Shown here: piece by piece, positions 1 through 5,439 of the stretch | Position numbering within the stretch: position 1 is the first letter of the stretch | Layout: each line of letters starts with the position of its first letter | Notes under the pieces: model-generated | Told to the model about the DNA's origin: nothing | Seen by the model: the letters and a program-made list of their open reading frames with translations, nothing else | The model's database searches: none | Assembly: GCA_946613955.1 (NCBI GenBank) | Contig: CAMOGC010000035.1 | Span: 1 to 10,871 of the forward strand | Direction: 5' to 3' | DNA: 10,871 bases | DNA from: an uncultured Clostridia bacterium | Lineage (GTDB): Bacteria > Bacillota_A > Clostridia > Christensenellales > Aristaeellaceae | Program-made: the position numbers and the translations under genes

Positions 1-16
1 GGCGGGCCTCAGAACC

Positions 17-3000
17 TCAGGACCGGATCAGCCGGGCCAGGGTTTCGTAGAGCCGCTCCGGCTCCACAGGCTTGGAAAGATGGGCGTTCATGCCGGCCTG
101 AAGGGAACGCTCCACGTCCTCGTCAAAAACGTTGGCGGTCATGGCGATGATGGGAATCTCCCGGGCATCGGGCCGCTCCAGCGCGCGAATGGCGGCAGCG
201 GCGGTCAGCCCGTCCATCACCGGCATCCGGACGTCCATCAGGATGGCGTCATAATACCCGGCGGGATGCCCGGAGAACATGTCCACCGCTTCCTGCCCGT
301 TGGCGGCCCGCTCGGCGGAAACGTCCTCCAGCTCCAGCAAATCCATGAGGATTTCCGCGTTCTGTTCCACGTCCTCCGCCATGAGCACGCGCCGGCCGGC
401 CAGCACCTTGTCCGGCGATTCCTCAGGGGCAGCGGAGGCCGCCTGGCCGGAACGGGCAAGGAGCACCCCGTGGATACAGCGCAGGAGGCTGTCGGCAAAG
501 AGAGGCTTGGCGATGATGCTGTCCACGCCCTGGGATCGGGCCTCCTCATCGATAATGTCCCAGTTATAGCCCGTCAGCATGATGACGGCGGTGTCGTCCC
601 CCTCCTGGGAGCGAACCGCCCGGGTCAGCTCCAGACCGTTCATCTCCGGCATCTTATAATCCGTCAGGAGCAGAGCGTAGGGCCGGCCCTCCTGCCGCGC
701 GGCGCGCATGCGCTCCGGCGCCAGGGGAGCACGGGTTTCCGTATCCGCTTCGATGCCCATGGCCTGCAGCACGACCTGGGCGTGCTCGCAGGCGATTTCA
801 TCGTCATCCACCACCAGGGCGCGCAGGTTCTCCGGCAGGGACAGGCCCTGCTCCGGCAGCGCCTTCCGGGGGGAGGCGAGCAGGGGAATCGTAACGGTAA
901 AGACGGTTCCCACGCCTTTTTCGCTGTCCACCTGGATGGTTCCCTGCATCATTTCCACGAAGTTTTTCGTGATGGCCATGCCCAGGCCGCTGCCGCCGTA
1001 GCGGTTGGTGGCGGTGGCGTCCTCCTGGGAGAAGGCCTCGAAGATTTTGGGAAGAAAGGCTTTGTCCATCCCCACGCCGGTATCCCGGATGGTAAAGCGG
1101 AGCTGGCAGCGGTTCTCTTCACGGGAAAACTGCTCCGCGGTCAGGCTGACTTCGCCGGGGGACTCGGTAAACTTGACGGCGTTGCCCAGGATGTTGATCA
1201 GCACCTGCTTGAGCTTCATGTCGTCGCCGACATAATAGTCCTCCGCCTGCCCGACGATGCCGCATTCATACCGCAGCCCCTTGTCGTCGCACTGGCCGCC
1301 CGCGATGATGTTGATCTGATCCAGGAATTCCCGGAAGGAAAACTCCTCGTTTTTGAGCACCATGCGGCCGGACTCGATACGGCTCATATCCAGAATATCG
1401 TTGATCAGGCCGAGCAGATGCCGGGCGCTGGCCCCGATTTTCTCCAGATGCTCCCGGGTTTTGGGGGACAGATCGGGGCTGCGCAGGGCGATGTTGTCCA
1501 GACCGATGATGGCGTTCATGGGCGTCCGGATCTCGTGGCTCATGTTGGAGAGAAAGCTGGTTTTGGCCCGGCTGGCCTCCTCGGCCAGCGCCTTCTCCAC
1601 CTCGCTCTGGCGCTCCCGCTTCTGGATGCCGTGATAGATTTCGAAAAGCACGAACAGCGCGACGATGATCAGGATGATCTGGGTGATTTCGCTGACCGAA
1701 TAGGCGGATTTTACGCCTTCCATCTGCCCGCGCAGGAAGGCCTCATCCTCCGGCGCGTCGGCCTCCAGGCCCGCCTCCCGCATCCGCTGGGCGTAATGAT
1801 CCCGGATCGGAACCACGGAGCGGTCCAGGGCGTCCTCGGTTTCCTGGGAAACCCAGATGGTGGAGGCGTAGAGGATCAGCGCGAAGAGCACCACCCAGAC
1901 CACCACCGTGCGGCCGAAGCGCTTTTCCCGATCCCTCCGGAAAACCCGGCGGAAATAGAACAGCCCCAGGATGCTCCAGGCGGCCAGGATGAAATAGGAC
2001 TCCATGGACAGGGTCTTCACATCCGTCAGGTTGGGTACCAGGAACACCAGGGCGTAGAGGAGGGAAACCGCCATGCCCGCGGCGCCGAAGAAGACGAAAC
2101 GACGGCTGCCCTCCCGCCGGGCGGTTTTGAAGGCCGAGGCGGAGGCGTAGGCGTAGGCGACGGAGGCGCCGACGGTGGTCACATCCACGATCCAGCTGAT
2201 GGCCGTTCTCCCCAGGAAGGGCAGGACGACGGAAACCAGGGAGATGGCCAGAATGGCGTTTTTCGGAACGGCGTGGGCGTCCAGCTTTCCGAACCAGCCC
2301 CGGAGCATGCCGTCGCCGGACATGGCCCGGATCAGGCGGCTGAGGGCGATATAATTGCCGATGAGCCCGGTAAAGATGGCGCAGAGGGCGGCAGCGCCCA
2401 GCAGGACGGAGCCGAAGGAACCGAGGGCATTCTGGGCGGCGAAAAAGGCAGGCTGGGAGGCGAGACCGTCATAGCGGCCCAGGTTCGCCACATAGTCCAC
2501 CCACGAGGCGCAGCCCTCCGGCAGCGCCGTGACGGCCAGCAGCGCCAGCAGGATATAGGCCGCGGCCGCGGCGACCACCGCGAGAGCGAGAATCAGGAAG
2601 GATTTTTTCAGGGGGAAGCGGGCTTCCTCCGCGGAATGGGAGATGGACTCGAACCCTACGAAGGCCCAGGGCGTCAGAGCGAAGATGGTCAGCACCCCGC
2701 CCACCTCGCTGTTGTTGGGCGAGAAGGCGGGCGCGAAGCTCGAGCTTCCGCTTCCCGCGGCCGCGGCAAAGCAAACGACCACGCCCCCGAAGAGGAGAAC
2801 GGCCATGAGAATCTGGACGCCCTCGGCCCTTTTGCGGCGCAGGCACAGCAGGGCCGCCACGGCCAGGGCCGCCACGGCCAGCAGGATTTCGCCCATATAA
2901 ACGTCATACCCGGCGACGACATAATGGAAGCCGAACTGGAACAGGGAGCCGAAAAGGGTGCGCGCGATCAGGGGCAGCGCCGAGGCGTTGGCCCAGATGA

Positions 3001-3325
3001 TGGCAATATAGGTCAGAATCAGGAACCAGGCGCTGACAAATCCGTGATCATGGCCGAAGCATTCGCTGGCATAGGCATAGACGCCGCCGCAGCCGGAGAA
3101 GCGGTTCATCAGAAAATGATAGTTGGCCGCCAGAATCAGCATGATCAGCGCGCCGATGCCGATGCCCAGGGCGGTTCCCAACGGGCCGGCCACGGGCAGG
3201 AAGGTGGTTCCCGGCATGACAAAAGCGCCCCAGCCCACGCTGCACCCGAAGGCCAGCGCCCAGGCACCCGGGGCGGAAAGATAGGGGGAAAACCCGCGCT
3301 TTTCGCGGGGAGCGGGATTGCTCAC
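17..3325 (-). CDS. APC-family amino-acid permease fused to a hybrid histidine kinase with two receiver domains
   Basis: This is a probable transporter-type sensor kinase. Residues 1-460 form a complete APC permease with about 12 membrane segments. TM1 has [11 protein letters not shown]6 is followed by [15 protein letters not shown], and the cytoplasmic TM8-TM9 loop (about 329-356) has the family's [12 protein letters not shown] and VPKN. Basic residues (RRKR 163-166, FRRVFRRDR 458-466) fit the positive-inside rule. TM13 (about 470-492), an acidic external loop of about 54 residues and TM14 (about 546-566) lead to the kinase. HisKA has H597 in [10 protein letters not shown]. The HATPase has N715, DTGVGM (D748) and [11 protein letters not shown]1 (about 834-957) has D889 and K940. 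REC2 (about 978-1100) has D1031 and K1085. All key residues are intact. The GTG start follows AAGGGAG. The plain permease family transports amino acids, so amino acids are a reasonable but unproven ligand. Whether it still transports is unknown. The design recalls CbrA, where an SLC5-type transporter is fused to a kinase. It is the last gene of the operon in view; the 16 bp after its stop show no terminator. Confidence 0.93.
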
Positions 3326-3334
3326 ATTCTTCAG

Positions 3335-3341
3335 CTCCCTT
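3335..3341 (-). promoter_or_regulatory. Ribosome binding site for the GTG start of the permease-kinase, with an overlapping ATG-TGA
   Basis: AAGGGAG ends 9 nt before the GTG at 3325. The bases at the start read AATGTGAGC. An ATG at 3327 sits at better spacing (7 nt) but is followed at once by TGA, while the shifted GTG opens the 1102-codon frame. No in-frame ATG exists before the first membrane segment, so GTG is the real start. The overlapping start-stop pair may lower translation. Confidence 0.6.
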
Positions 3342-3345
3342 CCAT

Positions 3346-3364
3346 CGCCGGTTTATTCCCGGCG
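3346..3364 (-). other. Small intergenic hairpin between Hpt and permease-kinase genes
   Basis: A 6-bp stem (CGCCGG with CCGGCG) around a 7-nt AT-rich loop lies in the 51-bp gap. There is no T-tract, so it is not a terminator. It could stabilise or process the message, or simply be chance in GC-rich DNA. It leaves the downstream ribosome site free. Confidence 0.35.
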
Positions 3365-3376
3365 GAACGGCTGACT

Positions 3377-3745
3377 TTACGCTTCCTCGTAGCGGCGGAT
3401 GCCGTCGGCGGCGGCCTGATACAGCGTCTCCACCCGGCCCAGAAGTTCCTTTACCTGGGCGTCGGTCAGGCTCCGGGGATGGCCGGGACGATATTCCTCC
3501 GTGATTTCGGAGGCGACGTCCGCCAGGGAGGTCAGCCCCAGATTGGCGCAGACGCCCTTGACGGCGTGCGCGGTTTCAAAGAGACCGGTCGGATCCATGG
3601 AGCGCCCGGCAGCCAGCAGGGCGTCGATCACGCCGTTGTGGGTAAACTTGCGGATATGCTTGTCGATCAGTTTGTCCATCCGAAGCACCCGCAGGGCCTG
3701 CTGATAGTCCCCGCCCATTTCCCGATACAGTTCCTCAAGCGTCAT
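3377..3745 (-). CDS. Stand-alone Hpt (histidine phosphotransfer) protein
   Basis: This is a small cytosolic carrier that moves phosphate between receiver domains in a multistep phosphorelay. The 122 residues are the normal size for a free Hpt helical bundle. The phospho-accepting histidine is H60 in ETAHAVKGVCANLG, which fits the family's HxxKG core followed by small and Asn/Leu residues. No kinase domain is attached. The ATG overlaps the stop of the REC-GGDEF-EAL gene (ATGA, 3742-3745), so translation is probably coupled. The permease-kinase starts 51 bp after the TAA. Because both neighbouring kinases are hybrids ending in receivers and neither has its own Hpt domain, this protein is the obvious shuttle from their receivers to the receiver of the EAL protein. 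That route is inferred from context. Confidence 0.92.
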   Translation of the reverse strand: MTLEELYREMGGDYQQALRVLRMDKLIDKHIRKFTHNGVIDALLAAGRSMDPTGLFETAHAVKGVCANLGLTSLADVASEITEEYRPGHPRSLTDAQVKELLGRVETLYQAAADGIRRYEEA

Positions 3746-5439
3746 GGCTGTTTGTTCCTTTCCCTCTCCCGCTCCAGGCGCAGCAGGCGCTCAAATTCCT
3801 CCGGCGGCAGGGGACGGGAGAAATAGAATCCCTGCACCAGATCGCAGCCGCCCATTGTCAGAAGATCCAGCTGCCCCTTTGTTTCCACGCCCTCGGCTAC
3901 CACCCGCACCCGCAGGTAGCGGGCGATGTCCAGAATCAGGGAAACCAGGCGGCGGTCGGTTTCGCTGCTTTCGATGTTGCGGATAAACTTCATGTCCATT
4001 TTCAGGACGTCAATGGGCATTTCGGAGAGCATGTTCAGGGAGGAATAGCCGGAGCCGAAATCGTCCATCTCGATATGGAAGCCCGTCTCCCGCAGACGCC
4101 GAACCACCTCCGGCACGCTCTGGCCGTTATCTGTATAGGCGGATTCGGTAATTTCCAGCAGGATATCGTCAAACCCGAGCCCGTTGTCGGCCATGACCCC
4201 CACCAGCCGCTCTGTCAGAGCGGGCTCAAAGAGCTCGGCCCGGGAGAGGTTGACGGAGACGGGCAGCGTGACGCCGAACTGATCCCGCCAGCGGGCCACC
4301 TGGGCGGCGGCCTCCTGCCAGACGAAGCGATCCACGATCCCGATCATCCCGTTCCGCTCAAAAAGGGGGATGAATTCGCCGGGAGAAATCATGCCCAGCT
4401 CCGGATGGTTCCATCGGACCAGGGCCTCTGCGCTGGAAAGCCGGGGCGGGTTGAGACGAATGTCGTATTTGGGCTGATAGAAGACCCGGAACTGGGCCTC
4501 TTCCACGGCCCTGCGCAGATCGTTCAGCAGGCGCTGGTTCCGCAGCTCCCGGGCCCGTATGGCTTCGTCATAGATCATCAGGGAGGTTCGGTAGCTGCCG
4601 CGGATCATGTTGCAGGCGGTGCGGGCCAGGTCGAAGAGCGCCGCCGGCTCCATGCCCTCCTGCCAGGGCGTGACCCCCATCCGGAGGCTGATGTTGGCGC
4701 CGGGAAAGGCGCGGTTGATCTCCGACTGGAACCGGTTCAGCACGGCGGCGTAATCCGGCTGGGCCACGCAGTAAATCGCGAAGCGGTCGGACTCGTTGCG
4801 GGAGGCGATGCCTTCGGTTCCCGCAAGGAAGGCGCGGACGGCGTCGCCCAGGGTCCGGAGCACCTGATTGCCGAAGGCCCGGCCGTGCAGGGCGTTCACG
4901 GAATGAAACTGGTTGATGTTCATGACCACGGCGTCCATCCGCAGCTCCGGATGAAAATGGTACAGCCGGTTGGCATACTCGAAAAAGAAATTCCGGCTGT
5001 AGAGCCCGGTCAGCTCATCCCGCTCGGCGGCGGCGATGAGCTGGCGGCCTTCGCTTAGCTCGATGATGCGGCGGACGCGGGCCAGAATGACCTCCGGCAT
5101 ATCGAAGGGCTTGGTGATAAAATCCGCTGCCCCCAGATGAAGGGCCCGCAGCTCCGCGCTTTTATCCGCGGTCAGCACAAGCACAGGGATGGCGTGCAGC
5201 CGCTCTTCCCCGCGGACGGCCTCCAGCACCTCGTAACCGTTCATGACCGGCATCATCAGATCCAGCAGCACGGCGGAAAGGCTTCCCGCCCGGGCCCGCA
5301 TCATTTCCAGGGCTTCCTGCCCGTTTTCGGCAAAGCAGACCTCGTATTCATCTTCCAGGATGACCCCCAGGGCGTCCCGGTTGATTTCCTGATCGTCCAC
5401 CACAAGAATCTGGCGAAGGAACTGTCGGGAATGGATCAT
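3742..5439 (-). CDS. REC-GGDEF(degenerate)-EAL response regulator, probable c-di-GMP phosphodiesterase
   Basis: This response regulator is predicted to hydrolyse the second messenger c-di-GMP to pGpG under phosphorelay control. Of 565 residues, the receiver (about 9-128) has D15/D16, acceptor D60 in LLDLMMPVMNG, T90 and K110. A GGDEF-family domain follows (about 136-292), entered by RDELTGLYSR. Its signature is replaced by ESDRF (216-220) and the metal and substrate positions are altered (NINQF, NALHGRAFGN), so cyclase activity is very unlikely. The EAL domain (about 305-550) looks catalytic: E338 in EALVRW, N397 in NLSR, E429 in EITES, D459/D460 in DDFGSGYSS, K480, E516 in AEGVET and Q536. 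The start codon overlaps the upstream kinase stop (ATGA, 5436-5439) and is preceded by AAAGGAGG. The stop overlaps the Hpt start in the same way. It is the likely output of this system. The dead GGDEF domain may be a nucleotide-binding regulator of the EAL domain, as in known composite proteins. Confidence 0.94.
   Translation of the reverse strand: MIHSRQFLRQILVVDDQEINRDALGVILEDEYEVCFAENGQEALEMMRARAGSLSAVLLDLMMPVMNGYEVLEAVRGEERLHAIPVLVLTADKSAELRALHLGAADFITKPFDMPEVILARVRRIIELSEGRQLIAAAERDELTGLYSRNFFFEYANRLYHFHPELRMDAVVMNINQFHSVNALHGRAFGNQVLRTLGDAVRAFLAGTEGIASRNESDRFAIYCVAQPDYAAVLNRFQSEINRAFPGANISLRMGVTPWQEGMEPAALFDLARTACNMIRGSYRTSLMIYDEAIRARELRNQRLLNDLRRAVEEAQFRVFYQPKYDIRLNPPRLSSAEALVRWNHPELGMISPGEFIPLFERNGMIGIVDRFVWQEAAAQVARWRDQFGVTLPVSVNLSRAELFEPALTERLVGVMADNGLGFDDILLEITESAYTDNGQSVPEVVRRLRETGFHIEMDDFGSGYSSLNMLSEMPIDVLKMDMKFIRNIESSETDRRLVSLILDIARYLRVRVVAEGVETKGQLDLLTMGGCDLVQGFYFSRPLPPEEFERLLRLERERERNKQP

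Follow-up and report, generated by a model that had tools for sequence, protein, structure and literature searches.

Membrane transceptors are held to be rare, and one report calls the S-component fold the first prokaryotic case (PMC11109136). Among the closest described systems is the histidine kinase CbrA, whose SLC5 domain transports histidine (PMC13022988). Ks-Amt5 is described as binding ammonium, having lost transport and driving its kinase (PMC5764959). For the yeast receptor Ssy1, published work records receptor-conserved residues and gain-of-function mutations in IL2-3 and at the cytosolic end of TM3, and proposes that a C-terminal latch binds IL2-3 (PMC12958826). The permease GkApcT serves as a structural reference: Met321Ser opens the site to arginine, Glu115 takes part in proton coupling, Asp237 is required for transport, and the Thr241-Arg327 pair helps close the cytosolic gate (PMC5803215).

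Among the titles and abstract openings listed by searches of open-access literature, none describes the fusion of an APC permease to a histidine kinase or a GGDEF domain; in sequence databases such proteins already go by the name "amino acid permease" or are given both functions. A protein of this kind is encoded in the window, by which is meant the whole 10,871-nucleotide stretch analysed here (contig CAMOGC010000035.1, from an uncultured Clostridia bacterium). Its permease core is read below, with moderate confidence, as a repurposed ligand receptor, a nutrient receptor made from a transporter, that feeds a relay to c-di-GMP.

The permease-kinase and its operon

The window carries six genes, all on the minus strand: eno, ppk1, HK-REC, REC-GGDEF-EAL, HPt and the permease-kinase. 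The last (17-3325) is a single open reading frame of 1102 residues that runs from the permease through the second receiver (Table 1). A Pfam scan of the protein returned AA_permease_2 (70.5 bits against a gathering score of 27), AA_permease, HisKA, HATPase_c and, over two stretches, Response_reg, with no family besides; the phospho-acceptor histidine, HATPase_c domain and C-terminal receivers with aspartates that define a hybrid histidine kinase are present, and domains and catalytic motifs are complete by Pfam scan and motif check. Predicted models of the permease core adopt a LeuT/APC fold with broken TM1 and TM6, and in structural alignments it is 16-21% identical to AdiC, GkApcT and CAT permeases. 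The first-pass annotation, made from the letters alone, had proposed a double-receiver hybrid kinase that begins with a complete APC fold, joined to the kinase through two further TMs; Pfam domains and modelled fold agree on this fused architecture, the structure prediction suggested for the N-terminal part yielded the LeuT-type fold, and the models place a TM13-TM14 hairpin at residues 471-586. This linker was modelled as a TM hairpin in a region (residues 466-590) where the Pfam scan gave no family above cut-off. An open reading frame of 1274 aa (2-3826, plus strand) lies antisense to the permease-kinase, which has clear homologues, and is probably a by-product of high GC.

Table 1. Features of the permease-kinase, its partner proteins and the receptor signature, with positions in the window
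Feature	Position	Strand	Remarks
APC permease (LeuT-fold) sensor core, 12 TM	1916..3325	-	residues 1-470
TM13, extracytoplasmic helical hairpin, TM14 and coiled linker	1568..1915	-	residues 471-586, from structure models
HisKA, phospho-acceptor H597	1367..1567	-	residues 587-653, Pfam 4.5e-18, motif position
HATPase_c	881..1228	-	residues 700-815, Pfam 5.9e-28
REC1, Asp889	446..814	-	residues ~838-960, Response_reg match, limits set by motif positions
REC2, Asp1031	38..388	-	residues 980-1096, Response_reg match
HPt protein, 122 aa, His60	3377..3745	-	Pfam Hpt 1.1e-8
REC-GGDEF-EAL protein, 565 aa	3742..5439	-	degenerate GGDEF site RNESDRF, EAL motifs intact; Pfam
Second hybrid kinase, HisKA-HATPase-REC, 498 aa	5436..6932	-	hydrophobic N-terminus; Pfam
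D93, cytosolic end of TM3	3047..3049	-	Asp in 54/55 fused, 0/11 free-standing 70% representatives
W111-A112, TM3	2990..2995	-	kept in all 120 listed permease-search hits
E226-S-I-S-H230, TM6b	2636..2650	-	free-standing rows listed read D/G-T/S-I-P-Q
N324, TM8	2354..2356	-	aligns with GkApcT residue 321
T383-T384, TM10	2174..2179	-	T383 weaker in the wider set

Signalling genes overlap at 5436/5439 and 3742/3745, and a gap of 51 bases separates the HPt gene from the permease-kinase; such close packing of all four is consistent with one transcript. The second hybrid kinase stands first among them and probably shares the operon's HPt. Hybrid kinase, HPt and output receiver, the gene set of an HPt phosphorelay, are thus encoded together, and the operon appears to specify a phosphorelay to c-di-GMP breakdown. 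In the REC-GGDEF-EAL protein the GGDEF site is degenerate, reading Rx(E/D)xDxF in all 34 rows (33 orthologues and that of the window). The catalytic phosphodiesterase motifs EAL, VNLS, ITE/VTE, DDFG, LK, AEGVE and QG are kept with conservative variants across the same 34 aligned rows, one of which is gapped at AEGVET. The expected output of this protein is c-di-GMP hydrolysis set by its receiver.

The gene order recurs. By tblastn, the HPt gene lies just upstream in 40 of the 43 kinase fusions with at least 600 bases of upstream sequence (45 fusions in total), and was not found upstream of the other three (L012, L038 and L055). With at least 4.5 kb upstream, 34 kinase fusions can be scored by tblastn with distance limits: HPt was found in 31, REC-GGDEF-EAL in 26 and the second hybrid kinase in 29, a count that takes in L038 and L055, whose match may be another kinase. 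All three partners are upstream in 25/34, and at least one was not found in 9/34; L020, L022 and L040 have HPt only, no REC-GGDEF-EAL gene was found by tblastn upstream of L029 and L062, and the kinase match of L037 sits downstream rather than upstream. As functional partners, ppk1 and eno were ruled out, neither having a tblastn match in 64 loci.

Spread of the fusion and exchange of its outputs

A homologue search over lengths of 0.55-1.75 times that of the query returned 2092 proteins at E <=0.001 among 7993 scored candidates, and the 120 listed all carry the same five Pfam families, those of the architecture for which the first-pass annotation had proposed a domain search. A genome scan gave 64 loci with 56 permease-bearing open reading frames, 45 with a kinase motif, four with GGDEF-EAL, three with GGDEF and four unclassed (786 aa, 947 aa, and the frame-broken L043 and L057). 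Many locus record titles refer to the rumen or another part of the gut in cattle, goat, sheep, deer, yak or buffalo, or include RUG, a code for rumen genomes. Counted as open frames of at least 700 aa at E <=1e-60, the fusion is present in 5/291 genomes of the class and 20/300 genomes of the family of the L001 genome, one of the 20 having an internal TAG, and in 11/296 genomes of the class of the Coriobacteriaceae locus L062; these samples include the seed genomes, and the unfiltered tallies, in which free-standing or cut permeases are counted too, are 8, 28 and 13, respectively. Two to four matches occur in each of several genomes. A Treponema MAG (the L064 genome), which could be contaminated, has two, in frames of 1000 and 953 aa. 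An APC sensor had been called uncommon at first pass, which stands for the open-access literature searched but not for nature, where the architecture recurs in Clostridia, Coriobacteriia and the one Treponema MAG.

The same counts bear on the reality of the join near residue 465, where a frameshift or assembly error could have fused two genes. Locus L057 does change frame near residues 454-471 (L057:6103-9445), which splits the fusion there, and breaks further on occur in L043 (9983-13161, near residue 560) and L032 (4690-7981, inside the kinase). Since the nearest rows to L057 in the tree, L014 and L030, are intact, its split is read as an assembly error or local mutation. Set against the domain set common to the 120 listed homologues and the 45 kinase fusions in related genomes, an artefactual join is vanishingly improbable, and for the family it is ruled out by the intact fused homologues. 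A search with the permease only, whose length limit of about 822 aa left out complete kinase fusions, found 616 proteins; of the 120 listed, 41 end in GGDEF, 22 are incomplete kinases with HisKA, and the other 57 consist of the permease only or are incomplete in some other way. All of these 57 keep W111-A112, and several extend into the hairpin before they end. They are probably cut or frame-broken fusions and not free-standing permeases, and consistent splitting of homologues at the join was rejected on this reading.

Pfam scans of eight locus proteins divided them into APC-HK-REC (L020, L038, L055 and L062), APC-GGDEF (L003 and L012) and APC-GGDEF-REC-GGDEF-EAL (L001:13337-17677, 1447 aa, and L046:1171-5136, 1322 aa). 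The L001 and L046 proteins place cyclase and phosphodiesterase modules on one APC receptor, and an open reading frame of this size starts directly downstream of the permease-kinase in L001, L002 and L059. The L001 orthologue of the permease-kinase is 71% identical to the window protein. The GGDEF site is intact in 41/41 APC-GGDEF proteins, and the hairpin layout is common to the APC-HK and APC-GGDEF forms. Judged from these architectures, the permease with its hairpin is a portable sensor. A quick maximum-likelihood tree was built from 91 permease domains and rooted by choice on the free-standing rows. A branch with SH-aLRT 99 splits the 13 free-standing rows from the fused permeases, and four changes of output type are needed among those fused rows whose output is known; as some terminal branches are long, deep placements are unsure, that of L055 above all.

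The kinase half is modular too. Near the permease-kinase operon, L014 (4-3282, minus strand) and L030 (2-3106, minus strand) encode proteins in which this module (64% and 61% identical, respectively) follows a start that by eye resembles a signal peptide and perhaps a sensor of the periplasmic binding-protein type. The double receiver noted at first pass is present in the window protein and in 29 of the 45 kinase fusions, but one receiver is dispensable: 13/45 have a single REC2-like domain, 43-83% identical to REC2 and closer to it than to REC1, and three are not judgeable (L028 and L061, at contig ends, and the frame-broken L032). REC2 is therefore kept in 42/42 judgeable fusions and REC1 is absent from the one-receiver relatives. 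As REC2 is both retained in the single-receiver fusions and better conserved than REC1 (0.86 against 0.71), it probably stands in the main relay.

Conservation and signature of the fused permeases

Conservation was scored over 69 homologues, namely the nearly identical P0001 and 68 others that are 59-70% identical over the aligned part. Mean top-residue frequency is 0.90 in TM1, 0.92 in TM3, 0.85 in TM6 and 0.90 in TM10, 0.77 in TM8, and 0.67 in both TM5 and TM11. The strong constraint on TM1, TM3, TM6 and TM10 (0.85-0.92), the best-conserved helices of the permease, agrees with the retention of substrate-site motifs noted at first pass, and because most substrate-lining helices are the constrained part, the pattern speaks for ligand binding in the permease core. 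The hairpin is shared by position. Mean identity to the window protein is 0.44 for TM13 and 0.33 for TM14 in the GGDEF set, 0.41 and 0.44 respectively in the partial HK set, and only 0.15 (41 APC-GGDEF proteins) and 0.19 (partial HK set) for the loop between them. With a top-residue frequency of 0.46 and 0/53 invariant positions, loop 496-548 is the least conserved part of the 69 homologues after the N-terminus.

These values bear on the proposal that the permease is a mere membrane anchor or assembly platform and that sensing falls to the extracytoplasmic TM13-TM14 hairpin, in the manner of classical two-TM kinases. The hairpin layout does resemble that of classical sensor kinases and is present in both HK and GGDEF forms. 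A sensor loop that varies so freely beside a strongly kept permease core, with identities of 0.15 and a mean of 0.52, respectively, in the 41 APC-GGDEF proteins, nevertheless makes this proposal improbable, and the receptor reading places the ligand in the permease itself.

Further evidence comes from comparing 218 fused with 125 free-standing permeases over positions 15-465. The strongest differences fall at A112, W111, D93, T383, T384 and H230, with N324 further down. The controls were L097-L104 and relatives of L099, with P0250, P0260 and P0261 dropped for length. The free-standing set is biased, 117 of its 125 rows being proteins of 440-520 aa among the 120 listed for one query, and the fused set overlaps itself, since a locus ORF and a database entry may represent one and the same protein; clustering at 70%, which deals with the bias and the overlap, left 55 fused and 11 free-standing representatives, the fused pairs reaching down to 33% identity. 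After clustering, W111 and A112 are each found in 54 fused and no free-standing representatives, H230 in 54/55 against 0/11 (Gln in all 11), E226 in 54/55 against 1/11, and N324 in 49/55 against 0/11 (Phe in all 11). Before clustering, Phe324 and Gln230 occur in 125/125 free-standing permeases, Pro111 in 123/125 and Met/Leu112 in 124/125, and the Asp at position 93 of the fused proteins is mostly Lys, Arg or His in the free-standing kin.

The wider incomplete hits show no variation at W111-A112 and some elsewhere: among the 22 partial HK-type hits, position 230 is His in 16 (Gln in 2, Asn in 4), 324 is Asn in 17 and 383 is Thr in 13, and among the 57 permease-only or incomplete hits, position 230 is His in 47 (Gln in 6, Asn in 4). 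L055, a deep fusion, does not follow the signature at W111-A112, E226 and H230. As the fused permeases group together, the signature may in part reflect shared ancestry.

The nearest free-standing relatives found are about 32-46% identical in the permease, and those of the sister group, such as the 465-aa L099, end at TM12 with no hairpin. The highest identity found (about 46%) is that of L098 (L098:2420-9652), whose neighbours are an AMP-binding enzyme, a hexapeptide transferase and two sugar-transfer-associated ATP-grasp genes; L099 lies near genes of the ornithine-cyclodeaminase and glutamate-symporter families. Such neighbours are suggestive at most of a ligand class. P0260 and P0261 (about 703 aa, 63% identical to the free-standing permease) also carry NTP-transferase/MobA-like Pfam domains, and possibly represent a nucleotidyltransferase-permease fusion.

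On a profile alignment the signature maps onto specificity, gate and acidic-pair residues of GkApcT: E226 corresponds to Asp237, H230 to Thr241, N324 to Met321, W220 to Phe231 and R330 to Arg327, the gate Arg being kept in 55/55 fused representatives. Because signature positions align with GkApcT residues of those roles, the alignment indicates that what sets the fused permeases apart from free-standing kin includes a specificity position and gate positions. The proton-coupling Glu115 and the TM5 Lys191 correspond to T105 and L178 in the window protein, and their equivalents are missing from fused and free-standing permeases alike. The missing residues were thus rejected as proof of lost transport, and transport competence cannot be read from the sequence, since the T105 and L178 departures occur in free-standing relatives too; they speak neither for nor against the link of flux to phosphorylation suggested at first pass.

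The fused permease could accordingly be a true transceptor in the manner of CbrA, still carrying its substrate, with turnover or the transported substrate driving the kinase. Exchangers of the AdiC type function although they lack the coupling residues of GkApcT, and the full permease fold, the TM1 and TM6 motifs and R330 are all kept. The histidine transport of the CbrA SLC5 domain (PMC13022988) favours this explanation as well. It is nonetheless rather unlikely: the pocket and gate positions H230, N324 and W111-A112 are consistently unlike those of free-standing relatives, and Ks-Amt5 (PMC5764959) and Ssy1 (PMC12958826) are reported as permease-derived sensors that no longer transport. A receptor made from a transporter remains the preferred reading.

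Proposed mechanism and comparison with known transporter-sensors

We infer the ligand class, the direction of the response, the order of the relay and signalling as the function selected over transport. In the proposed mechanism, a small molecule from outside the cell, probably an amino acid or an amine of similar kind, would bind in the LeuT-type site formed by TM1, TM3, TM6, TM8 and TM10, and closure of the permease around it would shift TM12 and the TM13-TM14 hairpin. The hairpin is modelled to run straight into the HisKA helix, and its movement would alter autophosphorylation of H597. The phosphoryl group would pass to Asp1031 of REC2, with REC1 acting as an accessory sink or branch, then to His60 of the separate HPt and on to the receiver of the REC-GGDEF-EAL protein, where it would set the activity of the c-di-GMP phosphodiesterase; the operon's other hybrid kinase would feed the same HPt. 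In the sister proteins, the same sensor would sit on an intact GGDEF domain and write directly to c-di-GMP. The loop after TM12 is basic among the rows listed, and by analogy with the Ssy1 latch, D93 might make a latch-like contact with the TM12-TM13 loop.

Taken further, these features suggest, tentatively and with a probability somewhat short of even, a bacterial class of APC receptors that arose by one loss of transport, with a remodelled pocket (E226, H230, N324 and W111-A112) and a latch-like contact of D93, and that then spread through Bacillota, Actinomycetota and Spirochaetota, where its kinase, cyclase and cyclase-phosphodiesterase outputs are interchangeable. If true, such a class would be a bacterial, covalently wired counterpart of Ssy1 that reports an amino-acid-like ligand to c-di-GMP. 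The fusions described here make up a large family in which one transporter fold senses for kinases and diguanylate cyclases, and they suggest that nutrients feed into c-di-GMP signalling in gut bacteria that have been little studied. The free-standing permeases serve as controls and, with the short list of residue swaps, make the changes from carrier to receptor directly testable.

In kind, such proteins are already known from the SLC5-STAC and Amt kinases; the variation here is the APC sensor with its swappable outputs. The SLC5-STAC kinases (CbrA, CrbS and RpuS) likewise join a complete N-terminal transporter to a histidine kinase, which in some of them ends in a receiver, but they use the SLC5 family and a STAC linker, whereas the window protein has AA_permease_2, a linker modelled as a two-TM hairpin, two receivers, and partner genes for an HPt and for a c-di-GMP phosphodiesterase as output. 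An SLC5 or Amt origin of the sensor was ruled out on the lack of such a Pfam match, and the scan of the window protein gave no SLC5 or PAS match. AdiC, GkApcT and the CAT permeases share the fold and the TM1 and TM6 motifs of the window protein, though not its signalling domains. Ks-Amt5, in which HisKA is joined without PAS, HAMP or STAC, resembles it as an uptake transporter turned sensor with a remodelled site; it belongs to the Amt/Rh family rather than to APC, its loss of transport is shown where that of the window protein is only suspected, and receivers are not described in the available part of its report, while the window protein has two. Ssy1, the yeast amino-acid receptor, is eukaryotic, has no built-in kinase and signals through the separate Ptr3 and Ssy5, and the likeness of the window protein to it would be convergent.
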